Below are positions 6,201 to 25,263 of a DNA stretch of 25,263 bases, in pieces (positions within the stretch are counted from its first letter, which is position 1; each line of letters begins with the position of its first letter). The notes under the pieces were generated by a model. It was not told where the DNA came from and searched no databases. It saw only the letters and a list, made by a program, of their open reading frames with translations. Made by a program: the position numbers and the translations under genes. Source of the DNA: Pigoraptor vietnamica (lineage: Eukaryota > Opisthokonta > Filasterea); contig CALSCQ010002076.1 of assembly GCA_943704525.1 (NCBI GenBank), forward strand, positions 1-25,263. Direction: 5' to 3'.

Positions 6201-9200
6201 TAGAGCAGCACACCGGTCGCAGGGTCGATCGAAACGACACCGTAAGTCGTCGACTTGAAGACAGACAGAAGATCCCCCGTGAGCGTGTCCTCCACGTCGC
6301 TGACGAGCGGAAGCAGCGGCACCGTGATGTTCGTGTCGCGCTTGAGCGAGACGTTCAGTGCGCGGGCAACCGGCGGGTCGTTGATGGGATCGACGACCAG
6401 CGTAAACGCCGACGACACGCACCCGCTCGAGCTGCAACCCTCGTAACTGACCACCTCGCGGCCATTGAAGTTGTGCGCCGGGACGTAGTGAACGATGCCC
6501 GTGGTTTTGTCGAACGTGAGGACACCGTGAGCCGTCGAGTTGAGCAGGTTGACGTTGGCTGGCGTCATCACATCGTCCGGATCGTACACGTGGGTCATCA
6601 TGTCAAAGTCGACGAACGTGTCCTCGTCGAGGCGAACGCTGAACGCAGACGGCCGCGGGAGGTCATCCACCGACGTGATTGTGACCGAAATCGTCGCCTG
6701 CGCGCACGCCGAGTCCGCGTCGCACACCTTGTAAACGAACGAGTCCGAGCCAAAGTAATCGGCGCCGGGCGTGTACGTGGCAACCATCGTGACAATGTTG
6801 ATCGTCGCAGTGCCGTTCTTGGGCTGCGTCACAATCGACAGCAACGTGCCATCGAGAATGGTCTCGACGTCGGCGACGAGGCCGCCGAAGTCCACCGTCA
6901 CCGGCGTATCCTCCAGGGTCGTCAGGCTGGCGCTTTGCGCCGTCGGCACGTCGTTCACAGAGGCAATGCTCAGAGTCACAGTCGCCGTCGCGCAGAGCAC
7001 CGGCGTGCCAAGGTCGCACACAGTGTACTGGAGCGAGTCGGGCCCGAAGTAGTTGGCCGCCGATGCGTAGCGAACCGTTCCGTTCGTCGCAAGCGACGCC
7101 GAGCCGTGCGTGGGTGCCTTCGAGATTGTGATCTGCGCGCCCGTGAGCGTGTCCTCCTTGTCAAACACAAGCGGAAGAAGGTGGAACCAGACAGGCGTGT
7201 CCTCGCTCGTCGCCACGCTCAGGTCGGCGGCGGTCGGCCCGTCGTTGACCGTGTTGACCGTAACGTCGATCGGCAGCGTGAGGCACGAGAACAGATCGCA
7301 GACAGTCACAACGAACGAGTCCGCGCCGAAATAGTCGGCCGTAGGCGTGTACGTGACAACGCCGCCCGCAACAGTGGCCGCGCCATGCGAGGCCGCCGTC
7401 GTGACCGTGACGTTCGCCGTGTCGAGCACGTTGTCGTAGTCGAACACGTTGGCGAAGACAGGAATGTCGAACGACGTGTCCTCGTCGAGCGTGATGTGGT
7501 CCCACTGCCACGTGTTCTTCTTCATCGGCGGGTCGTTGACGGCCACAAGCGAGAGGATGGACGTGACGACGTTGGACGCCGCCATGCTCAGATCCTTCAC
7601 AACGAGCGTAATGACGCGCGCCGTGACGTTGGGGTTGTGGTCGACAATCGTGTAGCGAATGTTCTGCAACACAGTCTCCCACTCCGCAATAGTCGCGACA
7701 CCCGTCAAAGTGAGCGTGCCCGTCGCGTTGTTTCCGCTAATCTTGTTCGAGATGCCCGCGGGAACGTACAGGCTCTCCTGGCCGGCGCTCAGGATAGTCG
7801 TCAGAGTGACCGTTGCCGTCGCCATCTTCGTGTCGTCCGTGTCCGTGATGCGCACCTCGGGGAACACGAGGGCAGACGAGCGCTCGACGACAAACGTGTT
7901 GTAGGTGGTGGCCGTCGTCGCATCCGCAAAGAGCTTGGGCGCGTCGTTGACCAGCACAATCGCGATCGTCGAGTAGAGGCGAATGCTGACGGCAGAGCCG
8001 TCCGAAACGTCGACCGAGAGGACACGGTTCGCGGGGTTCGGCTCGTCGGCAGTGTTCAGGTACCGGACGGTGCGCAGCACCGTCTCGAAGTCGGACGCGG
8101 GCGCCGAGCCAGTGATCGTGAGAGTGCCGCTGGCGTACGAAGCCGTCAGCGACGTTCCAGACGCGTCGGCCGAGAGGCTCTCGAGGGCGCCGTCCGGCGG
8201 CGACGAGACGAACGTCACCGTCACCGAGGCGAGCAGAGGCGAGTCCACGTCCACAATGGTGGCCGCGGCATCGACAATCGCCACCGCCGCGCCTTCCTCC
8301 GTGAACGAGGTCGAGTAGTTGCGGCCCGACGGCGTGCCGTTCAGGTCCACGATCGGCGCGTCGTTCACAGCCTGGAACGTGATGATGACCTCGGCGTAGT
8401 CGCTCGTCGCAGCGCCGTCGTTGACCGCAATGCGCACGTCGCGGGGCGAAGTGTTCGGGTTGCCCGGCTTCGCGTTAGCATTCGAGTAAGTCACTGTCTT
8501 CAGCACCTTCACAAAGTTGGCGACAGAGTCGGGTCCAGTGAGCGTGAGGCGGCCGTTGGCGTAAGCCTTCGTGATCGACGTGCCCGTGACCACAGCGTCA
8601 AGCACCTCCGCGGCGCCGTCCGGCATCGCCTGAAGTTCGGCGTAAGCGCTGGCCATCTGTGCGTTGTCCGAGTCATCGATGGCGAGGTTGTTCGTCGCGA
8701 GGGTGAGAACTCCGCCCTCCACGTAAGTGAGCGCAAGGTCGCGCGACACGGACGTGCTGTTGAGCGTGAGCACCGGCACGTCGTTGACGTACTGGATGGT
8801 CACGCTGCAGTAGGCAGTGACGGAGTGGAACGTCCCGTCGTAGACGACGAACGACACCGTGCGCTGGCCCGGGGTCGCGGGCTCGTCGGCAACGTTCTCG
8901 TAGACGACCAGCTTGAGCGCCGCTTCGTAATCGGCGACCGTCGCCGCACCCGAGAGTGTCAGCGTCCACGACGCACCAGTGTAGCTCGACGTAATGCCCG
9001 TGGGAAGTGTCCCAGCGACGACAAGACGCTCGTTCGCGCCGTCCTTGGCGTTCGTAATCTTCACGACTGCACTCTGCTGCATGAAGTTGCCAGTGTCCGC
9101 GTCGCGGAGAGAGAGATCCGTACCGAGCACCACCGAGGGGCCCTCCTCGACGAAAGTCACAGAGGCGTTCACGTTGCTGCCGTTGAGGCGCAAGACCGGC

Positions 9201-12200
9201 GCGTTGTCGTTCAGCAGCGTGAGCGCGACCGTCCGCGTCAGCGCGGCCGTCGAGAACTTGCCGTCAAACACCTGGAAGACGACGTCGCGGCTGCCCGGCT
9301 CCGGTTCCGCGGCGTCGTTGATGTACTGCGCCGACCGCAGGACCTTCTGGTAGTTCGAGTACGTGTCCGCGCCAATCAGCGAGAGAACGCGAGTCGTGGC
9401 GTCGTACGACGCGGCGATCGCCGTCCCGCTCACGTCGGCAAGGATGCGCTGCGACGCAGCGTCGAGGGAGCTGGTCACAATCGAAATGTTCGCCGAAGCC
9501 ATCAGGAAAGTGCCCTCCGGGTCCGTGTCCGTCAGCGTCAGGCCCGAGTTCGCAAGCGCGACAGCGGGGCCGTTCTCGATGTACGTCACGGACAGCACAC
9601 CGAGCGTGAGCACCGGCGCGTAGGCGTTGATCTGCGTGACCTTGAGGGACGCAGTGACGACAGACTGGTCGGCATCGTCGCTGACCGTGAACGTGAGGTT
9701 GCGCACGCCGGCCGAGGGGACAACCATCGTCGTCTTGTACTGGAACGACTTGACGAGGTTGACAAAGTCAGAAGTCGTCGTGCTCGCCGCAGGCACAAAG
9801 CGGTACCACACGTTGCTGCCCGTAGCGCCCTCGCTGGCCGAGAAGAGCGCGCCGGCATCCGTCCACGTGAGCGCCTCGCTCGGGTAGTCGACGGCGTGCG
9901 CAATGTCGACGCGGAGCCACGACATGGTCGAGTTGTCCTCATCGTAGATGCTCGTCGCGCTGACATTCACAAGGGCAAGAGGTGGGCTCGTCTCAATGTA
10001 CTCGAGCGTAGCCTCCGATGCCGCGCCGTAGAGCGTGAGGATGGGCGGGTCGTTCACCGACACAACCGTGATCGTTGCATTGGCGCGCGAGAGGCAGAAC
10101 GTGCCCGCGGGCGCCAACCGCACCACGTAGTTCACGCCGTACATTCCGTCGGCGAGCGAGCCGTCCGTCTGGTCCCACGGGGCGTATGTGAGGGTGGCCG
10201 TGCCATGGAAGTTGTGGTTAGGCAGGAAGCGCACCGACGCCGTCTCCGCGAGAAGCGTCGCGCGGCGGTCCGTCGGATTGACGGGGTAAATGGCGTTGTT
10301 CTCGAGAACGTTGCCAATGAACTTGCGCCACGTCGGGTCGGCGACCGTCTTGTACTGCCACTCGCCGTTGGAGACGTCCACGTCGAGGACAGCCATGCCA
10401 ATCTGTGTGGTTCCGTCCACGTCGCGTGCCGAAGGTGCGAGCAGGTCAAAGACCGTGATGCCCAGGTTGCTGGCGACGGGCGTGTCCTCGAGGATGGTCG
10501 GGACGATCGCCGCAACGCCGGTCAGAACAGGGGGATCGTTGACAGGCGTCACGATGATCGTGAGGGTGACGACGTCGTCGCTCACGGGCGCGTCGCTCGG
10601 GATGACGAGGGCGTTGCCGCTCATGTCCGGCGCACGCGTCTGGTCCCAGAGGCGGACCTGCAGCGTGGCCTGCCCGTTGAAGTCGAGGTTCGGAACGAAG
10701 CGAAGAGACGTCACCGTCACATTTGCCACCGTCACAGGCGTCGACGGCGACACAGCCGCAAGGTTGGCCCACGCGCCTCCAGAGACCGACGTCTGCCACG
10801 TGCCGTTCGCCACATCCGCGTCGATGACGACGACGCCAAACGTGGTTCCAATATCGACGTCCGACATGCGTCCCGTAAGGAGCGTAGAGATGCGGTTGCC
10901 GCCGTTGTCGGCATCCAGCACGTCCTCAATGATGCTCGGGAGAGAGACGACACCGGGCGCGAGGACCGGCTTGTCGTTGACGCTGGTGACCGTGATCATC
11001 ACAGCACGCGTCTCGTTGCTGAAAGCACCCGCGACGCGGAACATCGCATTGACGTTCGCCTGGCCGCTCAACGAACCGTCCGTCTCGTCCCACGCGGCAA
11101 ACGTGAACTGCGCAGTGCCCCAGTAGTTCGCCGCAGGGACAAAGCGAATAAACACCGTCGGCGCGACGCTGAGGACCGTCGCCGTGGCGCGCGACGTAGC
11201 GGCGGACACGGTGCTCCACGTCGAGCCAGAGTCCGTCGAGGTCTGCCAGTTGCCGTTGCTGCTGTCGACCGAGACGATGGCGATGCCAAAGACCGCGTCA
11301 TAGTCCTCGTCCGTGAGGAGGCCGGCCGCAAGCACGTCCGTCGCAATGCCCGGGTTCGAAGCCGACGGCACGTCCTCGATGATGTCCGCCATCGTCAGCG
11401 TGGCGCCCGTGGCGAGCACCGGCGAGTCATTGACGGAAATCACGGTGATGTTGACAGTCGCCGACGTTGCGCTGAACGCGTCAATGATCGAGGCAAAGCC
11501 GGAGGCATCGAACGACAACGAGCCGCTCGCGCCAGCTGTGCGATCCCACGCGCGAGCCTCCAGCATCGCAGAGCCGTGGAAGTTGCGCGCGGGCGCGAAG
11601 CGAATACGGTCGTTGGCACCGTTCGCGAGGAGAACGGCGCTCGCATCGGCAACATTGAGGGGAACGTCGACCCAGTCCGCGCCGTCAGCAGAGATCTGCC
11701 AGCGGCCGTTCGTTTGTTCGGCAGCCACAATCGCGATGCCCTTGAGAGGGTTTGCGTCAACGTCCGAAACGAAGGCATCAAACAGCGTCGAGACGCGCTC
11801 GCCACGGTTGTTCTCCGTGGGCACGTCCTCGTCGATGTCCGGCATGCGCAGCAAATTGACGTTAAGCACAGGCGAGTCGTTCACCGCCGTAACAGAGATG
11901 ACAGCCCGCGAAACGTTGCTGCGCGCACCAGCCATATCGGCCACGTACACGACGACGTTGCGGTTCCGCTCGGTGGGCGCCTGCGACGGGTTGACATACT
12001 GAATCGACCGGAGCATGCTCACGTAGTCGGCGATCGCAGCCGGGCCCGTAATCTCGAGAACGCGTGCACCCGCAACCGTCGACGTCGACACGTTCACGCC
12101 GCCGACCGCCGCGACGATGAGGTCCTCGCCGTTGTCAGCGGGGTCCGTCAGCGTGGCGCGAAGCAACGACATTTGCGAATCATCCGTATCGGTAATGACG

Positions 12201-18200: not shown

Positions 18201-21200
18201 ACGAACGTGACGGCCGAGGCAGGCGTGATAGTGACAACCGGCGTCTGGTCGTTGCGCAGAGTGACGTCGATGTCCTTCGTCGCCGTGCCTGTGAAGTCAC
18301 CGTCCGAGACAGTGAATGTCACCGTGCGGCTCAGATCCACCGGCTCTTCGATGTTGACGCGCCACGTCACCGTGCGCAGGAGAGCCTGATAAGAAGCGAC
18401 GTCGCAAGCGCCACTCAGCGTAAGCGTGCGAGACGAGACATCGTACGACTTCGTCACCGAGCACGGCAACGTCCCGGCGTCAAGAACATCCCCGGCCACG
18501 TCGGTCGAACCGCCCGACACTACAACCGTGGCAGAGCTCATGAGATAGTCGCCGTTGAAGTCGGCGTCCGTCAGCGTGATCGCAGAATCAACCGCAATCG
18601 CCACTGCGTCCTCGATCCAAGTCGTAGCACCAGTCGACGACGTCAGCACGGGCGCATTGTCGTTGACGGTGTGGACATTGATCGTCAACGTCGCAGTGGA
18701 GCTCGAGAGGAGGCTGTCCGACACAACGAACGAAACCACACGCGCCCCACGCGTCGGCTCGGCGGCATCGTTGACGTAGTGGAGCGACGAGAAGACTGCT
18801 TCGTAGTCATCGACCAATGCAAGGCCAGAGAATGTGAGCGTCTGCACTCCGCCTGTCGTCGAGTCCGTCAAGGTGAGGCCGAGGTCGCTGACCATCGTCG
18901 TGTTCACCGTCACGCGCTCAGCATCCACAATGCCGTTAACGGTGATGGTCGCTGCGCTGAGCGTGATGTTGTCAACGTCGACGACATCGACCGTGATGTA
19001 GTCGAACACCCAAACGTCCTGAGAGAGATTGTCCGACGTCTCAAGGAAGTCAAGCGTCGCCGTGTCGACGGTCACGACAGGCGCGTCATTCACAGGGCGG
19101 ACGACGATAGCGAGGCCGCGCGTCCCAAGGCTAAAGGCGGCGTCGGGTGCCGCGACAGTCGTGTCCACCACATCGCCGACGGCGTCCGACGTCTGATCCC
19201 AGCCCTTGAAGGTGCCCGTCGCCGTGCCAAAGAAGTCGTGGTTTGGAACAAAGCGGATGAGGGCGTCGACGTCGAGGAGAACAGCCGCCGTAGCCGATAC
19301 CGTGGGGAATGTCTGCCACGACGAGCCGCTGTCGGTCGAATACTGCCAGCTCCCGTGCGACGTCACAAGGCCCGTCACGGCGATGCCCTGAACGGCGCCG
19401 TCGTCCACATCAGCCATCACACCGTCCACAAGGTCCGACACAGACGTGCCGCTGCTGTCCGACGTGTCCTCCTCGATCGAGTCGCAGAACGAAGTTCCGG
19501 CAGAAACCACAGGACGATCGTTCACAGGCGTAACCGTGATGTCCAACGACGACTGGGCAGTCAGAGCACCGCCACTTCCCGTGTTGCCATCATCCGAGAC
19601 CTCAATGTCGATGGTCGCGTCGCCGTAGAAGTCCTGCGGGGGGTCGTACTCGAGCGCGCCGAGAAGCGCGTTCACGTCGGCAAGCGGTACGTTTATAACG
19701 ACGGGCGACGTCTGGAAAGTCGCGCCGGCATCGAGCGAGACGCGACCGTGATCAATGGTGATCGTGACCGTGATGGGTCCATTGGCCTCCTCGGCGTCGA
19801 CATCGGCGACAAGGAACTCGGTGTAGAGCGTCAGAATCGTGTCCTCGTCAACCGTCGCCGTGGAGGCCGCGCGGACAATCGAGGGGGCGTCGTTCACCGC
19901 CGTCACGACAACAAAACCAACAAGGTCCGCCGCGCTGTACGCGTCCGTGATGCTGACATCGGTCGCGTCCGCATTCGAGCCGTCCACCACCGAGTTCGTC
20001 TGATCCCAGCCACGCATCGTCACCGTCGCCTGCCCGTTCCAGTCGGCCGTAGGAGTGAACCGCAGCCAGTTGCCGGCCGCAGACGACAGGTGGCTAGCGT
20101 TCGACTGCGAGGCGGACGAGATCGTCGTCCACGAGTTGCCGCCATCCGTAGTGAAAGCCCAAACGCCGTTCGTGCTATCCACCGCGATCACAGCAACAGC
20201 AGTAACCGACGGTCCATCCACGTCAGTGAACTTGCCGCTGATGAACGACGAGATGGCAACAACCGCAGGGCCGTCTTCCGCAACCGTCGCAAGCGTCGCG
20301 GTCGCCGAGGCGCGCACAGGCGAGTCATTGACCGACACGAGCGTGATCGTGGTCGTGATCGTGTTGCCCGCGTCACCATACTCGTCCTGCACGACTGCAG
20401 TGACAGTCCGCTGGAGAGCCGGGTCGAAGGCGTCGTTCGTGTTCACGTACTCGAGGGACTGGATGAGGCTCACGTAGTCGGCGATGGCCGCGACTCCCGT
20501 GCACGAGACCGTCGTCGTGCCCGTGCACGTGATGCCGGACACGGACCCAACAGACAGCGACTCGAGGCTTCCAGCGTTGTGCAACGTAAACGTCGCACTC
20601 TGCATGTTGACGTCGTCGGAGTCCTCGATCGCAACGGCGCTCGCGTTGAAGACCGCAGTGTCCGCGTCGTTCTCCGTGAACGTGAAGCTCTGGCCTGCGT
20701 TCGACAGAAGGGGCGCGTCGTTGACCAGCGTGATCGTCACGATAGCGAACGCCGGAGCGCTGTTCAGGTAGTTGTCGTTAACGACGATTCGAACGTAACG
20801 ATCGTCGGGACTCGGCTCATCGGCGGTGTTGATGTACGAGAGCGTCTCGAGAACCGTCGCGTAGTCGTCAAACGAATAGTTGCCCGAAAGCGACAACACG
20901 CCGGTGCCAGCATTGTAGGACGCCGTGATGCTCGTTCCCGTGACGTCGACCGAGAGGCTCTCAAGGACACCGTCAAGAGGGTTGACAAGCGTGACGACCG
21001 CGTTCGCGAAGTTGCCCGAGTCAATGTCCGTGCACGTGAGCTGCGTCTGAATGAGGACGACTGCAGGGCCTTCCTCGACAAACGCCACCGTCGTGTTGAG
21101 CGCCGCGCCGTCCAGACGGACGACCGGGGGATCATTCACGGGCAAGAACGTGATCTGCACCTCCACATTGTCGCTGGAGAGCTCCTCGGCGCCGTGGTCA

Positions 21201-24200
21201 TCCGTAACATACAGCGTCACCGTCCGCAGAGCCAGCGTGGGAAGGCCAGAGATTTGGTTCTCGTACGTCAGCGAGCGAAGGACTGCGACGTAATCAGCGA
21301 CAGTCGCCGACCCAGAGAGGACCAGGTCAAGATGGTTCCCGCTGCGCACCACGCTCTTCGTGATGCCGGCCACGACGTCAACGTCGAGGAGCTCATTCGT
21401 GCCGTCGGGAACGGGCGAGAGGCGCACCTGCGCCGACGACATGTGCGTATCGTCGCTGTCGGTGATGACAAGGTTCGGGGCGAGAGAAAGCTCTCCGGTC
21501 GCCTCAATGTAGACCGTCTGCGCAAACTGCGCCGCGCCATCGAGAGTCAGAGCCGGCTCATCGTTCACGTACTGGATCGTCAGCAGCGAGTACACCGCCT
21601 CCGACGTAAACACGCCGTCCATCACGTGGAACGAGATGAGCCGAGACCCGCCAAGGGGCTCGTCAGCGTCGTTCCGGTACTTGACCGTCTTGAGAACGGC
21701 CGCGTAAGCCGCAACGCTCGCCGAGCCCGACAGCTGCAGCGTGTACGTGCCCGCATTGTACGTCGCCGTGATCGACCCGGTCCCAGTCGCCGAGAGCGCC
21801 TCGTCCGCACCGTCCGCGCCATCCACGATGACCACCTCGGCACCGACCATCGGCATCGCTCCGCTGTCCGCGTCCGTCAGAGTAAGCGCGTTCGTCGTGA
21901 GCGACAGCAGCGCGCCAGAGTCCTCGATGTACGTCACGCTCGTGTTGACAGCGCCTCCGTTGAGGAGGAGGACCGGCACCTTGTCGTTCACAAGCTGCAC
22001 GGTGACCGTGATATTCTCGATAGTCGTGGAAAACAGCCCGTCGAAGACGCTGAACGACGCCTCGCGGTCGCCGCCCGTCGGCTCGTCCGCCGTGTTCTGG
22101 TACTTGACCGTCCGCAGAATCGTCTGGTAGTTCGCCGCGCTCGTGGCTCCCTGAATGCTCAGCACACCCGACGAATACGTTGCCGTCACAGTGCCCGACA
22201 ACCCGCCCGGAATGGTCACCGACAGGACCTCACTCGAACCGTCGGGAATCGTCGCAAGCGTCACCGTCGCGCTCGCCATCGGGAAGCTCGGCGTGTAGTC
22301 CACATCAGTCACCGTCAACCCGCCGTCGACGACGACACTCGCGCCGTCTTCAACGTACGTGGCCAGCGCGGACGAAAGGACAAGCACAGGCGCGTGCAGG
22401 TTCTCCACCGTCACCGTAAACGTCGCAGTCGACGTGCTGCTGTCCAGCGCACCGTCGTTCACCTGCACCGTCACTGTGCGCGCACCGGGCTTCGGGAGCG
22501 CATTCGTGTTGCGGAACTTGAGCGAAGCAAATACGGCCTGGTACGTCGCAACCGTCGCCGACCCGCTGAACACGACCTGCATCGTCGCGGTGCTGGCGCC
22601 GGTAACGGTATCCGTCAGGCCGTTGGCGTCATACTCAAGCGTATCGTCGTCAAAGCCGCCGTCAACGTCCGCGCGCCCGTCGAGAATGACGGTCATGCTC
22701 ACAAGATCCGCACTGTCGATGTCAAAGAGCTGCGACGTTCCAGCGTCCGCGACGTCGACAGCGGCAGAACCTTGCGGGAAGTTGAGGCTACGAGCCGAGC
22801 TGGCCACCGAGATCACCGGGGCATCGTTCACAGGCGTGATGTCGACTGTGATCACGAGCACGTCGGTGCTATACGGATCGCGATAGTCGTCCACATGAAC
22901 GTCGGCGGTCTGACCAGCCGTACCAGCCGTCTCGTCCCACAGCAGCGCCGACAGCGACGAATCGCCGTCGTAATCAGCGACAGGAACGAAGCGGATGTCG
23001 GCGGTGCTCGGGACCAGGAGCGCAGCAGCCGCGCTGACCGACGCGATGTCCGTCCACGGATCACCGCCGGACAGGCGATACTGCCACTGGCCATTCGCGT
23101 TGTCTACCGTTGTGACAGCAAGCCCAAACTGCGTCGTGCCGTCCACGTCCGAACCAGCTCCGTTGAGCAGCGCCGGCAGAGAGTCGCCTGCGATCGTACC
23201 CGCGGTGTCGTCCTCCGTCACTGCCGTCAACGCAAGCGAGTTGACGAGCAGCACCGGCGAGTCATTAACGGCGGTGATCGTTAGCGACGCGACAGCGCTC
23301 GCCGAGCTAAACGGAGACGTGGCATCAAGAACCACCGGGTCAACGATGGTGCCAGCGAGAGCGGCACCCGTCTGATCCCACGCGACAAACGTCAGGGATA
23401 CGTCGCCATAGAGATTTGAAGCCGTGTTGAACCGAACAGCGCTCACACCGTCGTCCGCAAGAAGGAAGGCCGACGTCGACGAGAGGTTCGACGGCATATC
23501 GTACCACGTGGAACCGTTGATGGTGTACTCCCACACGCCCAGCGACGATCCGAGGTCGTAATCGATGATGCCCACGCCGAACACCGCGTCAGCGTCGTCG
23601 TCCGTGACGCCAGCGCCGAGCACGAGATCGGAAATCGAGAACGAAGTCAGCAGCCCGTCATCCTCGTTCACAGGTCCAATCGAGAACGTGGTCGTTTGCA
23701 CGACAGGCTCGTCATTCACGCTGTTCACCGCAATATCGAACTCGTACTCGTCAGCGCTAAATGCCGTCGACGCATCGAGACTCCGGGCATCCTTGTTCGT
23801 GTGGCCGCTCGTCGAACCGTCCGTCGTGTCCCACGCCGCAACCTTGAACCACGCAGCTCCGTGGAAGTTCGCCACGGGCGTGAAGCGCACCCGCACCGTC
23901 GACACAGCGCGCAAAACGACCGCCGAAGTCCGAGCCACCGTCAACGGCACCTGCGTCCACGCAGTCCCGCTGTTCGTGCTGAACTCCCACCGGCCGTTCG
24001 CCTGGTCCGCGTCAACAATCGCGAATCCAGTCACCGCATCCCAGTCGTCATCCGTAATCAGACCCGCAACAAGCGTTGCCCCATCAACACCCGCGTTGCT
24101 TCCAGACGCAACGTCCTCGTCAATCGCAGGCAAGGCAGAGCTGCCGGTCGCGATCACGGGCCGGTCGTTCACGGAGATCACAGTCACGGTCGCCGTCGCC

Positions 24201-25263
24201 GTCGCCGTGCTGAACGCGTCTGTGATGTCGGACTTGCCCGTGATGTCCGCCGTTTCATTGCTCGCGCCGCTCGTCTGGTCCCACGCCACAAACGAGAACG
24301 TCGCGGTCGACCAGAAGTTCAGCGCAGGCTCGAACCGCACGCGCGTCGTATTCGACTCGCCGCTCAGAAGCAGCGCGCTCGACGTCGTCACAGACGGAAC
24401 CGCGTACCACGTCGTGTTATCAACCGTGTACGACCACACGCCGTTCGTGTCGTCCACCGCGTAAATCGCGATGCCCTTGACTGCGCCAGCGTCAACGTCC
24501 GTCACCGTCCGACCAAGCAGCGACCAAATCGAAATACCCTCGTTCATCGCAGCCGGAATGTCCTCGTTGACCGACGCCAGCGTGAACGCCGCCTGCGTCA
24601 AAACGGGCGAGTCGTTGACGGCGACAACGTCCACGTAGACGCTGCGCGCAACGCTCACAAGCCGTCCGTTGTCGCGAACGGTGATGGTAATCACACGCTG
24701 CACGACAGTGTTCGGCGCCTGCGCCAACGTGCGATACGTGACATTCTTCGCGAGAACGAGAAGGTCGGCGACAGGAAGAGGCCCGAGGAGCAACAGACGC
24801 GTCTTGCCGACAGTGTAAACGACGTCGACGTCAGGGTAGTCGTCTGCTACAACCAAAAGCTCTTCGATGTAGTTGCCAGCCACGTCGCGGTCCTGCGGGT
24901 TCGTGATGATGATCGAAACTGACGTAAACTCGGGGCTGTCCGGGTCGCTGAACAAGAGGTTGTTGTCAAACAGCGTAACGGCCGTCGCGTCCTCGACATA
25001 CGTGCGCGTCGCGCCAGGCCAAGTGACAACAGGCCGGTCGTTCACCAATACAATCGTCACCAGCGACGTCCGCGTGTCGCTCCACAGAAGCGAGTCCGAC
25101 ACCCGGAAAGCAACCGAACGCGTCACCGGCGTAGGCTCGTCCCGCAAATTGTTGTACTTGACAGTCCGGAGGACCGTCTGGAACGCAGCCAGCGTGTCCG
25201 TGCCCGTAATATGCAGCGTCCACGTCGACGCGTCGTACGTGGCCGTCAGCGACGTCCCGGTCG
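3266..25263 (-). CDS. Giant modular type I membrane adhesin-like protein, 5' truncated by the window
   Basis: One open frame of 7,331 residues runs from the window edge to a TGA at 3266-3268 with no intron. The N-terminus and any signal peptide are outside: the frame is open to the edge, and the residues before 25147 continue a repeat unit (FQTVLRTVKYNNLRDEP), so no start lies in the window. Numbering from the edge, the order is: A- and B-type extracellular modules (1-5910) with one module split by two P domains (about 3120-3416), seven tandem-95 modules (about 5911-6598), a membrane-proximal region with three related modules and a SEA-like domain (about 6599-7106), a transmembrane helix (about 7111-7133), and a proline-rich tail (7134-7331). 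Modules carry repeated DxD motifs and V-N-D-x-P linkers like those of calcium-stiffened cadherin-like repeats. The most likely role is a very long cell-surface adhesion stalk. Ligand and partners are unknown. I cannot give a gene symbol. Confidence 0.95.
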   Translation of the reverse strand, partial: TGTSLTATYDASTWTLHITGTDTLAAFQTVLRTVKYNNLRDEPTPVTRSVAFRVSDSLLWSDTRTSLVTIVLVNDRPVVTWPGATRTYVEDATAVTLFDNNLLFSDPDSPEFTSVSIIITNPQDRDVAGNYIEELLVVADDYPDVDVVYTVGKTRLLLLGPLPVADLLVLAKNVTYRTLAQAPNTVVQRVITITVRDNGRLVSVARSVYVDVVAVNDSPVLTQAAFTLASVNEDIPAAMNEGISIWSLLGRTVTDVDAGAVKGIAIYAVDDTNGVWSYTVDNTTWYAVPSVTTSSALLLSGESNTTRVRFEPALNFWSTATFSFVAWDQTSGASNETADITGKSDITDAFSTATATATVTVISVNDRPVIATGSSALPAIDEDVASGSNAGVDGATLVAGLITDDDWDAVTGFAIVDADQANGRWEFSTNSGTAWTQVPLTVARTSAVVLRAVSTVRVRFTPVANFHGAAWFKVAAWDTTDGSTSGHTNKDARSLDASTAFSADEYEFDIAVNSVNDEPVVQTTTFSIGPVNEDDGLLTSFSISDLVLGAGVTDDDADAVFGVGIIDYDLGSSLGVWEYTINGSTWYDMPSNLSSTSAFLLADDGVSAVRFNTASNLYGDVSLTFVAWDQTGAALAGTIVDPVVLDATSPFSSASAVASLTITAVNDSPVLLVNSLALTAVTEDDTAGTIAGDSLPALLNGAGSDVDGTTQFGLAVTTVDNANGQWQYRLSGGDPWTDIASVSAAAALLVPSTADIRFVPVADYDGDSSLSALLWDETAGTAGQTADVHVDDYRDPYSTDVLVITVDITPVNDAPVISVASSARSLNFPQGSAAVDVADAGTSQLFDIDSADLVSMTVILDGRADVDGGFDDDTLEYDANGLTDTVTGASTATMQVVFSGSATVATYQAVFASLKFRNTNALPKPGARTVTVQVNDGALDSSTSTATFTVTVENLHAPVLVLSSALATYVEDGASVVVDGGLTVTDVDYTPSFPMASATVTLATIPDGSSEVLSVTIPGGLSGTVTATYSSGVLSIQGATSAANYQTILRTVKYQNTADEPTGGDREASFSVFDGLFSTTIENITVTVQLVNDKVPVLLLNGGAVNTSVTYIEDSGALLSLTTNALTLTDADSGAMPMVGAEVVIVDGADGADEALSATGTGSITATYNAGTYTLQLSGSASVAAYAAVLKTVKYRNDADEPLGGSRLISFHVMDGVFTSEAVYSLLTIQYVNDEPALTLDGAAQFAQTVYIEATGELSLAPNLVITDSDDTHMSSAQVRLSPVPDGTNELLDVDVVAGITKSVVRSGNHLDLVLSGSATVADYVAVLRSLTYENQISGLPTLALRTVTLYVTDDHGAEELSSDNVEVQITFLPVNDPPVVRLDGAALNTTVAFVEEGPAVVLIQTQLTCTDIDSGNFANAVVTLVNPLDGVLESLSVDVTGTSITASYNAGTGVLSLSGNYSFDDYATVLETLSYINTADEPSPDDRYVRIVVNDNYLNSAPAFAIVTITLVNDAPLLSNAGQSFTFTENDADTAVFNASAVAIEDSDDVNMQSATFTLHNAGSLESLSVGSVSGITCTGTTTVSCTGVAAIADYVSLIQSLEYVNTNDAFDPALQRTVTAVVQDEYGDAGNTITTTITLVSVNDSPVRASATATLATVAEDGPAVVAISSFISGKFTDVDGPSVTAVAVIAVDSTNGVWAFTTDGGNSWTTISSASQSNASHLSSAAGNWLRFTPTADWNGQATVTMRGWDQTNSVVDGSNADATDVSITDAYSAADLVGFVVVTAVNDAPSIVRAASTATVDEDTILTLYTEFLVADVDAEEANGPITVTITIDHGRVSLDAGATFQTSPVVINVPLADVNALLGALEYDPPQDFYGDATIDIEVSDDGNTGSGGALTAQSSLDITVTPVNDRPVVSAGTSFCDSIEEDTSDSSGTSVSDLVDGVMADVDDGAVQGIAVTGLVTSHGSWQYSTDSGSSWQTFPTVSATAAVLLDVDALIRFVPNHDFFGTATGTFKGWDQTSDAVGDVVDTTVAAPDAAFSLGTRGLAIVVRPVNDAPVVTVDTATLDFLETSDNLSQDVWVFDYITVDVVDVDNITLSAATITVNGIVDAERVTVNTTMVSDLGLTLTDSTTGGVQTLTFSGLALVDDYEAVFSSLHYVNDAAEPTRGARVVSFVVSDSLLSSSTATLTINVHTVNDNAPVLTSSTGATTWIEDAVAIAVDSAITLTDADFNGDYLMSSATVVVSGGSTDVAGDVLDAGTLPCSVTKSYDVSSRTLTLSGACDVASYQALLRTVTWRVNIEEPVDLSRTVTFTVSDGDFTGTATKDIDVTLRNDQTPVVTITPASAVTFVEEGPSIQVWNPSPSVTLTDADSDGGTLVSATITIVDAQDGALESISATGNANVAVDAFDFGTHTLSLHGSGLLSDYEDVIRSVVYANTADEPGSAPGFRAIEIVVCDGVQCSSPMSTVVQIIYVNDPPRLSVNGTGNADYLVDYIESLTPLSIASPSLHIEDDDNSTLVSATLTMVMSPDGADEVLDVDVSGTPIIKVHTGGNLTLVGPASVSDFIAVLRTATYVDLNARPGNPNTAPRRIAFVVYDGVDPCETVYTDMTFEAVNDAPIIDLNGPAAGRVYVTSFTEEGPAVFAFPAMTIIDVDSETIVSASVRIRNAVDGSGESLSADTSGTAITAWYSTLNATLSLVGVDTPAMYQQVLRTVRYINTLDEPKNDARDIGVDASDGLDAAVTINSTINIIWINDAPVLDLDPAIAGADFYVTFVEQSVGAPLCARSLAITDDDDLRMSKLVLNLTNALDQDEYLYVDDSTLDYGLAVVGNATHTITVSGSATISVYRNVLRLARYVSTSHNPTRLPAREVTVVVTDAGFTSPVLETNVATVFISTHLVDDLPFVFLGGLGMRDVNVTYGERSTGVVLAFANVTITDMDNTTMTEAVVRIVDELDNLDESLFADLTAFPALDWDYDVSGRLTISGEASIATYQGALQTVHYKSTASVDSQPPRLISVRMYDGNLYGPEAFATVVIAPRNDAPTLALNRTGDTSVSVIFVQGGPRIHIAGGQAMAIDVDSNLVGLKAMFDAVPDGANEAIVVAYPTQVVSNTALLSSGSVDKDLRVDCPGSSTSYCVTDVLAASGAGAVRSVQVELNIDHGYIGDLIVTLEHAGTKVKLFSRLSLGGAAGECNGKDIRGLVLDDLASQSVDRLCFSNLRSSLRPSEALSSFQGLDFAGDWTLTVTDAYKPFRNGVLRSWRLIVTLDDRFAVPALTYQKGWVQVAGLLSIPFTVVEPSIILDLDVELQIAGPIADTRVTLVHPSGARVDLFDQTTTTTCDVLDMFATVFDASGASSSLAGACARGMPGSFRPLGDLSSLNGLRIDGTWSLEVNHTGVVPLENVGCRLLAVSRPDFDWSYSAGTLNVTGFVSPAQLSKILDFTYYIDVAAVPDITDRLLRTSVTDGQFWSNTVNTTIKMHNAPVLDGDTTTGGHDALAVYVEDDVPTTLAPSTWLSDDGLFKTVSAHIVLAGHVDGSAVEVLSWSNVTGVTAAFDGTTLELGGSASRAVYEGIIKSLTYKHTSEDPTPGDRTVTVTVTDAAGLTSNAAILVVSVVAVNDPPVIHFDNTTASPSVTFREETAGAMLAAHPFLIDVDDDNLASLTFVIHGCQDADETIAVNTYGYNVTLTPSRVGSDYTLVIAAASSVTVAEFRDILASAKYVNTAVEPNPTPRTVEVVANDYADNSVLSNITVNIELINDNAPVLSLGSLSPVFVEDSAPLAVTDSSLTLTDADLNTMFYMVGAEVKIVTATVNSATERLDANVSSTSIAKSYNVTSRTLSLSGSDTVANYERVLRSVTYVILEDEPVGTTRVISFVVNDGDFSSSVEQRSVSVTLVNDKTPVVTLDGASANFSVIFIEEGAAVRVSRSVVATDADSGNFDMVGAVVAIADGKDGAAESLVVSGTLPAGINATYDAASYTLTLVGSAPVADYATAFGMIEYHNVADEPLPEGLRTVTFVLNDGLHFSTLVAADAKIIFVNDLPVVTLNSSSPVPDMYVTYTEGQQPLRLATDLLLVTDDDNTTLTSAVLRLTPHPDGINEVLDVNLGSTSLSKSYSNYVLTITGTAPLADYIAVLSTATYHNSNERPGNPIDIPRNVSFVVFDGLGPSADVYAHIAFTDVNDPPILDLSGAQPGVNTSAVFTEERGAVSIVQADLSLVDIDSAVMAFAQAILSPIPDGADEMLAAVAFNASVTVSYNAATGELRIDGPAATAVFEETLRTLTYNNLKDEPNPVAREVLVTVTDLGGAVSLGRFSNVSITLTNDSPKLLDGNNTLADASAAFIEDAGPVSLFAAHVITDTDDSQMSLLRATLTDPADNGEDLIVAAVGGVNVSTSTVAGARVLEITGPAAIADYVSMLRSIQYVNPSQAPTERNRNVVVYVADMAGARSNVSRAVISVTAVNDSPVLNVNLLRMPDIDEDVPTENNRGERVSTLFDAFVSDVDANPLKGIAIVAAEQTNGRWQISADGADWVDVPLNVADASAVLLANGANDRIRFAPARNFHGSAMLEARAWDRTAGASGSLSFDASGFASIIDAFSATSATVNITVISVNDSPVLATGATLTMADIIEDVPSASNPGIATDVLAAGLLTDEDYDAVFGIAIVSVDSSNGNWQTSTDSGSTWSTVSAATSRATATVLSVAPTVFIRFVPAANYWGTAQFTFAAWDETDGSLSGQANVNAMFRVAGAFSNETRAVMITVTSVNDKPVLAPGVVSLPSIIEDVLDADNGGNRISTLLTGRMSDVDIGTTFGVVVIDADVANGTWQTSVSGGAWANLAAVSPSTPVTVANVTVTSLRFVPNLDFNGQATLQVRLWDQTRAPDMSGNALVIPSDAPVSDDVVTLTIIVTPVNDPPVLTGVAAIVPTILEDTPVASNLGITVFDLLAPSARDVDGTTQIGMAVLDVDVSNGEWQYKTVADPTWRKFIGNVLENNAIYPVNPTDRRATLLAETASVRFLPNHNFHGTATLTYAPWDQTDGSLADGMYGVNYVVRLAPAGTFCLSRANATITVVSVNDPPILTLYGAASEATLEYIETSPPLALVNVSATSIYDEDNSTMSWLRVDIAHAVDYPSEALTWTDAGALFSASEGATGSNVWYRFVPAASTTTSDFVNLVKSFQYKTTMVVPSAGVRNLTFTVSDDADQSVVTASLKVTQINAYAPVLTLGVLSVTYIENGPAVALANSGLTLTDTDPEGTFLMASANISIVTSSLDAASQRILADVSGTAIAASYDATTRVLSLIGADTYSNYQKVLRSAQYINDAAEPEPGSRDVVFQVFDGKFSTAALTRTVALTLLNDNAPVLRLNGSNVNASVTFVEEGPSVVLGTDLSLRDADTGNFMQQSAVVKITNAKDGANERLVVAGTLPTGITSSYTGASWTLTLSGAATVADYEAALKLVVYENVADEPATPGQRTVSFVVYDGTFHSVTAYCSVTIQYVNDVPVLTLNSTSVSRDLALTYVEGGVLTLATNNLAIDDSDNAQMASAYAELQAMPDGAAEVLDAVVTGTSITKAYANGRLTLTGPDSVANFVKVLKTVTYSNANAKPGNPNTSPRDVRIAVNDGAATSDYAEVIITFQAVNDAPIVDLNGTPSGRNYSTSFTEEGAAVAIVDAAATIVDVDSPLLASVTVTFVSSPPDGALESLSADASGTSLTASYASGTLTITGSAPASDFETVLRTVRYLNTADEPNPANRVLSVDVSDGSAVSIRLYSTIAIVLVNDAPKLFADATTATTYNTFVVERSSALVFPEVRITDTDDTKMATATVTLTTILSAGQESLYVPAGISNKISGNNATGTLTLTGVATIAEWETVLQNIRYTIVDHNPNVTARVITLVVKDLSMAASNVVTSILSLVAVNDPPMKKNTWQWDHITLDEDTSFDIPVFANVFDYDNVLDTANVTVTTAASHGAATVAGGVVTYTPTADYFGADSFVVTVCDLFSCLTLPIDVTVNTVNDGPTAADLSVATSEDTPVWFHLLPLVFDKEDTLTGAQITISKAPTHGSASLATNGTVRYASAANYFGPDSLQYTVCDLGTPVLCATATVTLSIASVNDVPTAQSASLTTLEDTPVTVDFGGLVADVETILDGTLLSIVTQPKNGTATINIVTMVATYTPGADYFGSDSFVYKVCDADSACAQATISVTITSVDDLPRPSAFSVRLDEDTFVDFDMMTHVYDPDDVMTPANVNLLNSTAHGVLTFDKTTGIVHYVPAHNFNGREVVSYEGCSSSGCVSSAFTLVVDPINDPPVARALNVSLKRDTNITVPLLPLVSDVEDTLTGDLLSVFKSTTYGVVSIDPATGVLLYVPDQYYYGLDSVTYRICDLEGACALAKVGINVTFVNYPPVPEDITVSTDEDVEYLIFAKDYVNDIDDNRDKRKMTISLVERSLPNATLSLNSLNGIIRFTPALNWWGSVSFSYRVCDSNGACAQAKIFMTVNSVNDAPLASSLTGIRLLANASQTFDVLPKATDVDNNIDYMSTRVDDPLPPGTLTIVNVTDAASGAVRSAIMYTAPASGFIGLATISYTICDLGMPVLCASAKIEVSVEILGPYIASVIAADPNNRDSEFGIGDTITVKFNEPTSQPFVDTKRDIDRVFVMPGILASADYVGTWSDAGATLVIAITQGIHPIPNALALLDATVRLQVRASGNLRNAALTSRASEALSPQWTGNWGTALPKITDFVINKEQADSSDTGKALPRGSVVTVAFNGPVNFKHCDVIPKEMVAKLFDKPETLGANFVARFKSSDGTPCPPLDTSKYGANLVGRLYVRDTNSTGDSLAANELEIIILDSTGQTLGSSADVVTALTINPSAIQSGLLNNFAGTGNGTSADLSNDVALSDYIQLDLNVQYGQYSLPIEREVLSNLSTTLNTTTANIVLVRTKDNGYATMVFYVTSSNSTATTRAAKAYLAGLSASALTNFIPRARTITTTSPVSDVTRSPAPKVIAFYASDPDQGDDYYSPGDVITFVFDIPTNKPPVATKANIDQLIRFSQALGNSYVGEWTASNTLKITILDVIGSLPPRAGVLTATFINGLLKNPDNSSLASSETTSPISGNFGNPESVPVLYYALPASLFVVIVTVAVLVYLRFRPKPTKKIMPMPTDFPKDASQPWTRPPAMVAMRNNPDPFLNMPDIGASPMQPAIQQIAAPPLPRQAPIVAPIALGQGSTSPKAQQRGPRADVVNWQAKRRHLPSEAIQPAPPAMVLPPLQRLPIPPPNGQASTAPRRLPSLAALGLLPPSSVRVGPALPVDAPPGAQPQPAMLQMPPLHNLEPEEGGAEGPNESEA
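3269..3862 (-). other. Cytoplasmic tail of the giant protein
   Basis: 198 residues after the transmembrane helix, starting RFRPKPTKK, a basic stop-transfer sequence that sets the tail inside the cell. It is rich in proline and alanine (for example LPPLQRLPIPPP), has no cysteine and no tyrosine, and ends in an acidic stretch EPEEGGAEGPNESEA. It contains one DPF (NNPDPFLN, DNA about 3736-3755), a motif that in animals binds the AP2 alpha appendage, and a basic RRLPS. It has no PPxY, NPxY or catenin-binding sequence that I recognise. It looks disordered, with possible short linear motifs. Confidence 0.8.
3863..3931 (-). other. Single transmembrane helix of the giant protein
   Basis: About 23 residues, VLYYALPASLFVVIVTVAVLVYL, uncharged and strongly hydrophobic, followed immediately by RFRPKPTKK. 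This is the only clear membrane segment in the visible 7,331 residues and defines a type I topology, with the modular array outside. Confidence 0.93.
3945..5470 (-). other. Membrane-proximal region: three related modules
   Basis: Three divergent copies of one module follow the tandem-95 array. Copy 1 (about 5100-5466) has ADPNNRDSEFGIGDTITVKF and WSDAGATLVIAIT. Copy 2 (about 4610-5085) has LPRGSVVTVAFNGPVN and LEIIILD. Copy 3 (about 3945-4305) has ASDPDQGDDYYSPGDVITFV, IDQLIRFSQALG and WTASNTLKITILD. The common pattern is a D/N-rich start, G-D-x-[IV]-T-[VF]-x-F, an I-D-x-[VL] helix, then a W or F and L-x-I-x-I. I recall similar modules in large surface proteins of protists and algae, but I cannot name the family with certainty. 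Confidence 0.6.
4340..4605 (-). other. SEA-like (ferredoxin-fold) domain between modules 2 and 3
   Basis: About 88 residues from DYIQLDLNVQYGQYSLPIER to NFIPRART. The pattern is strand, helix (REVLSNLSTTLN), strand (ANIVLVRTKDNGYATMVFYV), helix (TTRAAKAYLAGLS), strand, as in SEA-like alpha/beta domains that sit near membranes. It lacks the G-S-V-V-V autocleavage sequence at the turn. Assignment is from the pattern only. Confidence 0.4.
5470..7532 (-). repeat. Seven tandem-95 (cadherin-like) modules
   Basis: Seven consecutive modules of about 96 residues (DNA spacing about 283-322 bp) have the tandem-95 pattern: E-D-T near the start, H-G or N-G-T, a Y-T/V-P strand, F-G-x-D-S-F-x-Y, then V-C-D and a closing V-N-D-x-P linker. 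Boundaries lie near 7532, 7233, 6950, 6665, 6377, 6088, 5792 and 5470. All seven have a paired cysteine around the last hairpin (for example VCDADSAC, ICDLEGAC). The last module is the longest and most degenerate. Confidence 0.85.
7532..10050 (-). repeat. A-type hexad 4 (six modules)
   Basis: Six A-type modules with boundaries near 10050, 9617, 9200, 8782, 8357, 7944 and 7532. The A-type pattern is [FY]-x-E near the start, D-x-D, D-G-x-x-E-x-L, a GT-L-x-L-x-G strand, a helix Y-x-x-V-L-R-T-V-x-Y-x-N, E-P then R-x-V-x-F-x-V-x-D-G, and a V-N-D-x-P linker. Each module carries its position signature: GTFLM in position 2, DADTGN in 3, PGNP in 4, DLNGTPSG and FTEE in 5, ITDTDD in 6. Confidence 0.85.
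10050..11876 (-). repeat. B-type quartet 2 (four modules)
   Basis: Four B-type modules with boundaries near 11876, 11427, 10973, 10537 and 10050. The B-type pattern is E-D-x-P, D-V-D, G-I-A-I, N-G-x-W-Q, a W in the next strand, R-F-x-P-x-x-N-[FY], then A-W-D-x-T. Similar modules are common in giant bacterial RTX/VCBS-type adhesins. The fourth is longest (about 487 bp), with an insertion after TWRKFIGN. Confidence 0.85.
11876..14402 (-). repeat. A-type hexad 3 (six modules)
   Basis: Boundaries lie near 14402, 13980, 13565, 13137, 12716, 12295 and 11876. Position signatures repeat those of the other hexads: TMFYM in module 2, DADSGNFDMVGA in 3, PGNP in 4, DLSGAQPG with FTEE in 5, and ITDTDDSQM in 6. 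The linkers after positions 1 and 2 (INDNAPVL, VNDKTPVV) are one residue longer than the other linkers. Confidence 0.85.
15015..15390 (-). other. P domain 2 (proprotein-convertase type), degenerate
   Basis: A second P-domain-like segment: LDVELQIAGPIADTRVTLVH, PSGARVDLFDQ, SFRPLGDLSSLNG, then GTWSLEV. It keeps the sequence L-x-H-P-S-G, F-R-P, L-x-x-L-x-G, G-x-W-x-L-x-V. It lacks the Y-x-G-D turn of copy 1. It carries three cysteines (TTTCDV, GACARG, VGCRLL). Confidence 0.7.
15450..15905 (-). other. P domain 1 (proprotein-convertase type)
   Basis: A well-preserved P domain: VQVELNIDHGYIGDLIVTLE, H-x-G-T-K-V-x-L-F, SLRPSEALSSFQGLDFAGDW, TLTVTDAY, then LRSWRLIVTLDD. This matches the jelly-roll P domain known from kexin/furin-type proteases and from many bacterial secreted proteins. 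No protease domain accompanies it, so its role here is probably structural or in binding. It has four cysteines, two flanking GSSTSY at the start. Confidence 0.88.
16548..19088 (-). repeat. A-type hexad 2 (six modules)
   Basis: Boundaries lie near 19088, 18660, 18248, 17822, 17400, 16988 and 16548. Signatures are GDYLM in module 2, DADSDGG in 3, PGNPNTAP in 4, DLNGPAAG and FTEE in 5, and ITDDDDLRM in 6. Linkers after positions 1 and 2 (VNDNAPVL, RNDQTPVV) are the longer type. Module 2 has a cysteine pair (LPCSV and SGACD) on adjacent strands. Confidence 0.85.
19088..20327 (-). repeat. B-D-B spacer (three modules)
   Basis: Boundaries lie near 20327, 19890, 19520 and 19088. The outer modules are B-type (NGVWAFTTDGGNSW and GWDQT; WQYSTDSGSSW and GWDQT). 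The middle one, about 123 residues, is a different module with DEDTILTLYTEF, ITIDHGRVSL, LGALEYDPPQDFYGDA and DDGNTGSGG. That resembles a cadherin-like module usual in bacterial giant adhesins (D-x-G-N-T-G-S-G-G-A-L). It is the only copy in the window. Confidence 0.8.
20327..22828 (-). repeat. A-type hexad 1 (six modules)
   Basis: Boundaries lie near 22828, 22400, 21983, 21560, 21132, 20718 and 20327. Module 2 has PSFPM, module 3 DADSGAMPMVGA, module 5 LDGAALN with FVEE, and module 6 IEDSDDVNM. Module 4 lacks the PGNP segment of the other hexads. Linkers after positions 1 and 2 (ENLHAPVL, VNDKVPVL) are the longer type. Module 6 has a cysteine pair (ITCTG and VSCTG). Confidence 0.85.
22828..24615 (-). 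repeat. B-type quartet 1 (four modules)
   Basis: Boundaries lie near 24615, 24168, 23715, 23265 and 22828. The four modules match quartet 2 in order: module 1 with DVDA and KGIAI, module 2 with AGLITDDD and DAV, module 3 with FGVGIID, module 4 with DVDGTTQFG and NGQWQY. Confidence 0.85.
24615..25263 (-). repeat. A-type hexad 0, last two modules (partial)
   Basis: The final part of one A-type module reaches the window edge (TVLRTVKYNNLRDEPTP), followed by a complete A-type module (about 24615-25040) that precedes B quartet 1. The first resembles position 5 (NNLRDEPTP, compare NNLKDEPNP in hexad 3). The second, by its place and weaker conservation (TLAQAPNTVV), resembles position 6. The array therefore continues upstream of the window. 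Confidence 0.7.

Follow-up and report, generated by a model that had tools for sequence, protein, structure and literature searches.

The gene studied here is built of repeated modules, and the question it raises is which unit was copied as it grew: the single module, a group of six, or a still larger block. The window, one whole contig of 25,263 bases (C850) from a 32.5-Mb genome, carries on its minus strand a frame of 7,331 codons whose 5' end is open and whose stop lies at 3266. An earlier note on this DNA had described A-type modules in groups of six (hexads), each position with marks of its own, and had concluded that evolution worked with units of at least a hexad. With a probability of about 0.8, we read the frame as part of a type I protein of giant size on the surface of a flagellated protist, which grew by block duplication and would form a calcium-stiffened stalk for adhesion or for a coat.

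We divided the frame into 40 modules (the incomplete x1 being counted), seven C-type modules and a tail (Table 1). Modules measure about 140 residues in type A, about 148 in type B and about 95-124 in type C. An adjoining frame of 551 aa (859-2514, minus strand) finds a match (E 8.8e-10) in the central coiled coil of ODAD1, a protein of outer dynein arm docking, so the organism likely has motile cilia. The strand opposite the giant gene holds an open frame (4973-13789, plus strand, 2,938 aa), probably a by-product of GC-rich codon use.

Table 1. Features of the giant gene in the window (positions of C850).
Feature	Position	Strand	Basis or remark
Giant membrane protein gene, C-terminal part, 7,331 aa	3266..25261	-	ORF translation, open at 5' end
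x1, second part of an A module	25046..25261	-	first 57 residues at the end of contig C583
x2, A module	24620..25045	-	best profile position 6; most identical module G2.6, 0.35
B-type modules B1-B4, four-module spacer	22832..24619	-	module cutting, tree, identities
Hexad H1, six A-type modules	20333..22831	-	module cutting, identity test
Near-identical tract across the H1.6/S1 border	20237..20596	-	partner C583:3893-4252
Spacer B-C-B = S1, S2, S3	19094..20332	-	counterparts X1, X2, X3 on C583
Hexad H2	16556..19093	-	module cutting, identity test
T1-T3, three A modules	14411..16555	-	best profile positions 4, 5, 6; T2 with insertion
T2 insertion with two matches to the P-domain (PF01483), 15467-15805 being the better	15017..15931	-	Pfam
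Hexad H3	11885..14410	-	module cutting, identity test
B-type modules U1-U4, four-module spacer	10058..11884	-	module cutting, tree, identities
Hexad H4	7541..10057	-	source of both AlphaFold2 models (single module, whole hexad)
Seven C-type modules	5477..7540	-	Big_9 / Cadherin_5 / Cadherin_4
Membrane-proximal region	3941..5476	-	no Pfam match at E up to 1
Predicted transmembrane segment	3860..3940	-	hydropathy only
Predicted cytoplasmic tail	3269..3859	-	proline-rich, by translation

The four hexads were recovered at 22831-20333, 19093-16556, 14410-11885 and 10057-7541 (minus strand), at most 10 bases from where the earlier note had placed them. Among their 24 modules, and with x1, x2 and T1-T3 outside the count as not part of a full hexad, mean identity was 0.376 at the same position (36 pairs) and 0.298 within the same hexad (60 pairs), with 0.314 for adjacent modules (20 pairs) and 0.297 for other pairs (180), in agreement with the claim of position-specific modules. 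None of 20,000 within-hexad label shuffles reached the observed same-position mean (shuffle maximum 0.348), and in-register pairing exceeded all five cyclic shifts in six of six hexad pairs. Same-position identity ranged from 0.20 to 0.36 at position 1, from 0.29 to 0.37 at position 6 and from 0.32 to 0.51 at positions 2-5. The module tree that the earlier note had called for, built by maximum likelihood, groups modules by position, with 7 position-label changes versus 18 hexad-label changes; it is weakly resolved (three of 26 inner forks starred), and positions 5 and 6 taken singly are unremarkable in it (83/500 and 64/500 shuffles as low). When x1, x2 and T1-T3 were added as a seventh group, 12 label changes were needed, and 0/200 shuffles were as low.

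In a self-comparison of the protein, the highest summed scores fall at offsets of 0.4 and 0.8 kb, which correspond to neighbours (46 and 31 hits of about 62 and 57 bits each), followed by offsets of 3.7, 4.4, 4.7, 8.4 and 9.0 kb (10-14 hits of about 77-104 bits each), and further ones at 4.3 kb (13 hits, about 59 bits) and 12.7-13.2 kb. Hexad-type offsets thus have fewer but mostly stronger hits than neighbour offsets. The predicted diagonals at 4.3 and 8-8.5 kb are present as hexad-type offsets, but not as a regular step, since the actual steps are 3.74, 4.68 and 4.35 kb. At the DNA level, blastn at E 1e-8 inside the window returned three weak diagonals. The description of hexads parted by spacers of three to four modules also needs correction, because the group between the second and third hexads is itself A-type and scores best as positions 4-5-6.

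A genome search with hexad 4 matched, among the best candidates, C850 and only one other contig, C583 (G000:C583, 2-13576, minus strand). Its frame runs from an ATG at 13576 to base 2 (4,525 aa), begins with a hydrophobic leader and ends within an A module at the low end of the contig, as C850 starts within an A module at its high end. Judged against other modules, the gap between the two frames would be about 8-9 residues, and x1 put together with the end of C583 scores best as position 5 (109.8 bits versus 88.1 for the next position). C583 is therefore most likely the missing N-terminal part of the giant gene, a join that we infer from sequence. Joined, the two contigs would encode a protein of 11,856 aa or more, made up of 54 A, 15 B and 9 C modules, two P-domains and one membrane span, in the order A7 b A6 bb A6 bcb A6 AA bbbb A6 bcb A6 AAA A6 bbbb A6 c7, tail (modules of types A, B and C written as A, b and c). 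Sequons number 86 in the 7,331 aa of the C850 frame and 25 in the 4,525 aa of the C583 frame, and cysteines 36 and 7, respectively, both being commoner in the C-terminal part.

C583 contains four more hexads (G1-G4), the first with seven modules and the following three with six. The extra module, G1.3b, sits after position 3, is most like G1.3 and G4.3, and scores 117.4 as position 3, 113.4 as position 5 and 109.0 as position 4. Over all eight hexads, counted without G1.3b and the five non-hexad modules, identity was 0.384 at the same position (168 pairs), 0.316 within the same hexad (120), 0.332 between adjacent modules (40) and 0.310 for other pairs (840), with 0/5,000 shuffles reaching the observed same-position mean. 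The most identical module sits at the same position for 37 of the 48 modules, where about 7 would be expected, and leave-one-out profiles placed 46/48 correctly, missing G1.1 and H4.1. The conclusion that the hexad or a larger block, not the single module, was the evolving unit is thus repeated in four hexads that lie outside the window from which it was drawn. Since a single clade of C583 hexads is rejected (p-AU 1.4e-7), the hexad copies of both contigs intermingle.

The marks that the earlier note had assigned to the positions fall into two kinds. Three of them, the linker, the x-M and the PGNP marks, are truly positional. Longer linkers after positions 1 and 2 are seen as an extra residue at the start of modules 2 and 3 (0/4/4/0/0/0 for positions 1-6 in the window), and across the eight hexads at 8/8 of both positions and 0/32 elsewhere; G4.3 has S in place of P, and for H1.2, H4.2 and G3.2 the mark hangs on a module cut placed by hand, the VND word being degenerate in H1.2 and H4.2. 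The extra segment before a Met at position 2, written as [FYL]-x-M after DxD, occurs 0/4/1/0/0/1 times in the window and in 8/8 versus 2/40 modules over all hexads, while PGNP, claimed for position 4 in three of four, is found there exactly so (0/0/0/3/0/0) and in 6/8 of all hexads, at no other position. The remaining marks are enriched, not exclusive. All four window hexads have DAD and DGAxE at position 3, but both also occur elsewhere (1/2/4/0/0/1 and 0/0/4/2/2/0), DAD being present in 8/8 hexads at position 3 and in 4/8 at position 2. Position 5 carries [FV][TV]EE and L[NSD]G in 4/4, yet the former extends to position 3 (0/0/2/0/4/0; 6/8 and 3/8 at positions 5 and 3 over all hexads) and the latter further (0/0/3/1/4/1). 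Likewise, the DD mark of position 6 (4/4) is shared with position 4 (0/0/0/3/0/4), with 6/8 and 4/8, respectively, over eight hexads.

How large was the copied block? The spacers of type bcb correspond module by module: X1 and S1 are mutual best matches with an identity of 0.81, X2 and S2 share 0.48 versus at most 0.28 to other C modules, and X3 finds its best match in S3 (0.44), whose own best is W2 (0.45). Correspondence of the B-runs is partial. W1-B1 (0.55) and B2-U2 (0.47) are mutual best matches and U1 is closest to B1 (0.44); W2, B3, B4, U3 and U4 had no clear partner in this comparison, and a B4-U3 pairing at 92/87 in a ten-row tree was not prominent in a fifteen-row tree. The two hexads that precede a bcb spacer, G3 and H1, pair as sisters with full support (100/100), the sole firm pair among whole hexads. 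Therefore, at least one copied block covered a hexad together with its spacer, which bears out the "or larger" of the original claim.

A regular super-repeat with three hexads to the unit, in the order hexad, B-run, hexad, BCB, hexad, would be compatible with this layout. The groupings G3+H1+H4 (p-AU 0.48) and G2+H3 (p-AU 0.51) cost 0.25 and 0.3 log units, and G4+H2, predicted by simple block duplication, costs 7.7 (p-AU 0.26), while the hexad tree prefers G1+G4 (91/88). From hexad to hexad the step is 8, 8, 9, 12, 9, 9 and 10 modules. x1-x2 and T1-T3 look like truncated hexads, as their best scores correspond to positions 5-6 and 4-5-6; best and next scores are 58.4 and 45.9 bits for x2, 75.8 and 73.2 for T1, 62.4 and 44.7 for T2, and 65.7 and 60.6 for T3, the positions of T1 and T3 being decided by narrow margins.

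Upstream of the H1.6/S1 border, in the aligned G3 and H1 blocks with their preceding B-runs, fourfold sites agree at 97/243, where unrelated choice would give 98.1, and 40-codon windows of the same alignment keep 0.38-0.60 of their residues. Because fourfold sites are random while residues are kept, the copies must be old and the protein under selection. The H1.6/S1 border shares 1,016 bases with its C583 counterpart at 80% identity. Within it, the tract 20237-20596 (360 bases, 120 codons) is 85-98% identical in DNA to C583:3893-4252 and agrees at 53/57 fourfold sites (23.9 expected by chance), whereas the next 120 codons agree at 19/49 (19.7 expected), though 72-82% of their residues are the same. 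The simplest reading of the tract would be recent gene conversion; misassembly might also have produced it. The rest of that B module, past the tract, seems to be under unusual constraint.

Regarding the nature of the modules, Pfam scans covered the window frame and the C583 frame, in two pieces each, as well as 24 A and 10 B modules. No Pfam family fits the A modules well, and 9/24 match the calsyntenin C-terminal family weakly at E up to 0.1 (best E 0.00024); in the organism's own genome this family has one match, on C583. Among B modules, 7/10 match Cadherin_5 and 5/10 Big_9, and the C-terminal piece strongly matches Big_9, Cadherin_5 and Cadherin_4. PF00028 (Cadherin) was not found in the scans of the two frames, the 24 A modules and the 10 B modules. 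Over the 24 A modules, N2, D38, D40 and D126 are invariant and D3 and E23 nearly so. N2, D3, D38 and D40 match the cadherin DxD and xND-xP linker calcium motifs; the order of the invariant N, D-x-D and D and the near-invariant E recalls that of cadherin calcium sites. The LDRE calcium motif of true cadherins, as LD[RKQ]E, is present in 0/48 modules, and DRE in 1/48. Calcium at the linkers is likely, with these residues as candidate sites only.

AlphaFold2 predicts a single A module (8789-9214) as strand-rich with one helix (mean pLDDT 96.5), to be compared with the Greek-key beta-sandwich of cadherins. With this model, Foldseek ranked human B4GALNT1 first and cadherin chains from rank 4 onwards (TM-scores by query of about 0.3-0.5). 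VIA-align likewise placed the B4GALNT1 beta-sandwich (residues 143-255) first (Z 10.8, rmsd 2.7, 113 aligned, 24% identity), with E-cadherin at Z 7.2, and below B4GALNT1 the structure searches returned cadherin repeats, cohesins and bacterial adhesin domains. The A module and the B4GALNT1 beta-sandwich may be distantly related. In a sequence search of solved structures with E up to 1, profile A1 gave four chains, all at the level of chance (best E 0.68), and profile A2 none. The model of the whole hexad H4 (mean pLDDT 80.5, alignment of 4 rows) has a pTM of 0.34 and hence does not fix the arrangement of its modules; we dropped the hexad as a rigid unit, for or against which this model does not speak. 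The earlier note had gone further than an evolving unit and proposed the hexad as a structural unit of the stalk. This second part finds no support here, given the low pTM and the apparent tolerance of partial hexads and of a seven-module one. A step of 8-12 modules is unlike a strict structural repeat, and descent alone explains the hexad pattern.

A-type modules also occur in bacteria. A plasmid-borne DUF4347 protein of Burkholderia anthina has 18 of them and adjoins TolC and HlyD-type genes. Its module identity drops from 0.588 (lag 1) to 0.532 (lag 6) and 0.471 (lag 12), while the giant protist protein gives 0.314, 0.352 and 0.353 at lags of 1, 6 and 14; no hexad signal was found in the Burkholderia array, a single and thus small control. 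From 43 matched bacterial stretches, 33 modules were taken by length and score. In a quick tree with these modules and few columns, where the bacterial modules are not one clade (4 changes), the position groups stay clustered (16 label changes summed over all groups, shuffled mean 50.5, 0/200 as low), with position 4 as one clade at 87 and the other positions at 2-4 changes (shuffled mean about 7.7). Position 2 is the best resemblance of 23/33 bacterial modules, from which we claim no origin, since 18/33 come from one protein. Phages had no A-type match at E 1e-5, and one scan of viral contigs confirmed 0 of 49 pattern stretches, while one scan of prokaryote genome contigs gave 3 loci from 201 stretches. 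Among plasmids 15 records matched, of which 3 were examined. One gene of 48,720 bases on a Variovorax plasmid (CP063167.1:19413-68132), annotated as a tandem-95 repeat protein, has three clear A-type modules in the fetched part of about 12.9 kb. B-type matches, mostly in large open frames, were seen on the protist contigs C33, C630, C222, C1265, C529, C82 and C1019, which are absent among the A-type matches. Nor does the protein look like an RTX adhesin exported by a bacterial type 1 system, against which the hydrophobic N-terminal leader on C583, the C-terminal membrane span and the eukaryotic neighbour gene with its ODAD1 match speak.

The same pattern might have arisen from duplication of single modules followed by convergence, if selection for a six-step partner lattice had made equal positions alike. 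Adjacent modules are indeed slightly more alike than other pairs over the eight hexads, neighbour offsets have the largest summed score in the self-comparison, and one such duplication apparently occurred, that of G1.3b. Nevertheless, shared indels such as the extra linker residue and PGNP, as well as the corresponding spacers, are hard to obtain by convergence, and in the bacterial array of the same module type identity falls with distance instead; we regard this explanation as highly improbable. Unlikely, yet to be taken more seriously, is a functional register of the titin kind, in which each hexad together with its spacer would meet one repeat of a surface lattice or partner. Marks and residues kept over random fourfold sites, the retention of whole hexads in order eight times and the titin precedent (PMC10665226) would all fit. 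On the other hand, the hexad step is irregular, partial hexads are apparently tolerated, no partner is known and the whole-hexad model shows no fixed arrangement.

There is very little chance, in our view, that C583 is a separate paralogous gene and not the N-terminal half of the C850 gene. The two contigs are unjoined in the assembly and differ in their sequon counts. However, one half has no stop and the other no start, both break off at contig edges inside an A module, the joined parts of x1 score best as position 5, and the hexads of both contigs intermingle, which by itself would not distinguish one gene from two paralogues.

Our preferred reading starts from what the sequences show, growth by block duplication: six A-type beta-sandwich modules, one hexad, were copied together, and in at least one case the spacer went with them. 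The distinctions between positions, in the form of linker length and small insertions, are older than the block copying and were kept while synonymous sites were randomised. C583 and C850 are likely halves of one gene, and later exchange probably left truncated copies (5-6 and 4-5-6), one duplicated module and one short, recently converted tract. Lined up end to end, the 78 modules, at 4.5 nm each as in cadherins, may make an extended rod very roughly 0.35 micrometre long. Calcium at the linkers and at the D-x-D site would stiffen it, and one membrane span with a proline-rich tail would anchor it for a role in adhesion or as a surface coat. A very long calcium-stiffened cell-surface stalk is the most likely function; we infer it from the invariant N, D-x-D and D and the near-invariant E, with RTX extenders as the tested parallel. 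A bolder and quite improbable proposal is an extracellular counterpart of titin, in which hexad and spacer would be position-coded docking units of a surface fibre. Along a surface or flagellar coat every position would bind a different partner, and the copies would now and then undergo gene conversion.

Growth by super-repeats in the manner of titin is shown here for a single-celled eukaryote, in a giant protein that is extracellular and cadherin-like. The apparent truncated copies and the conversion tract let its duplication steps be read, and the gene may offer a testable case of when block duplication turns into functional register. An uninterrupted frame of about 35.6 kb over two contigs also runs the risk of being annotated as two unrelated fragments.

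Several known systems invite comparison. Calsyntenin consists of a cadherin pair, an LNS domain and a full C-terminal domain. Summed over the repeats of a frame, a stretch of about 60-80 positions of the protist protein scores above the curated threshold for the calsyntenin C-terminal region (PF19699), but the match covers only about positions 155-239 of 354; neither PF00028 nor laminin G was found in the Pfam scans, and we do not class the protein as a calsyntenin. Two cadherins are reported for Thecamonas trahens in PMC4265756. The bacterial A-type arrays share the module type, by profile, and the tandem arrangement with the protist protein, and differ in that identity falls with distance and type 1 secretion genes adjoin the bacterial gene. 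In RTX adhesins, the extenders are likewise long tandem beta-sandwich rods, stiffened by linker calcium (PMC7493085); they belong to bacterial outer-membrane adhesins, whereas calcium binding by the protist protein is a prediction. BapP of Pseudoalteromonas tunicata, a biofilm adhesin by knockout, resembles it in mixed cadherin-like and Big_9 repeats, DxD motifs and, in BapP, modelled linker calcium, but is a bacterial protein of 1,600 aa with 12 beta-sandwich repeats and Calx-beta matches, and the excerpt of PMC12153261 does not mention a super-repeat for it.

The closest parallel in mode of growth is titin, from which the super-repeat principle is already known (PMC10665226); our literature searches found no hexad array of this kind, nor this setting and hierarchy. 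In the titin A-band, super-repeats of several domains were duplicated recursively; its domains resemble each other more where their positions correspond, markedly so in the central C-zone repeats, and linker types are conserved at set positions (PMC10665226). The protist protein differs in lacking a constant step, with 8-12 modules from hexad to hexad, and in being extracellular, cadherin-like and membrane-anchored, whereas titin is an intracellular array of FnIII and Ig domains in register with the thick filament. What the protist protein shares with titin is the way of growth, since across several super-repeats its modules resemble those at equal positions more than those next to them.
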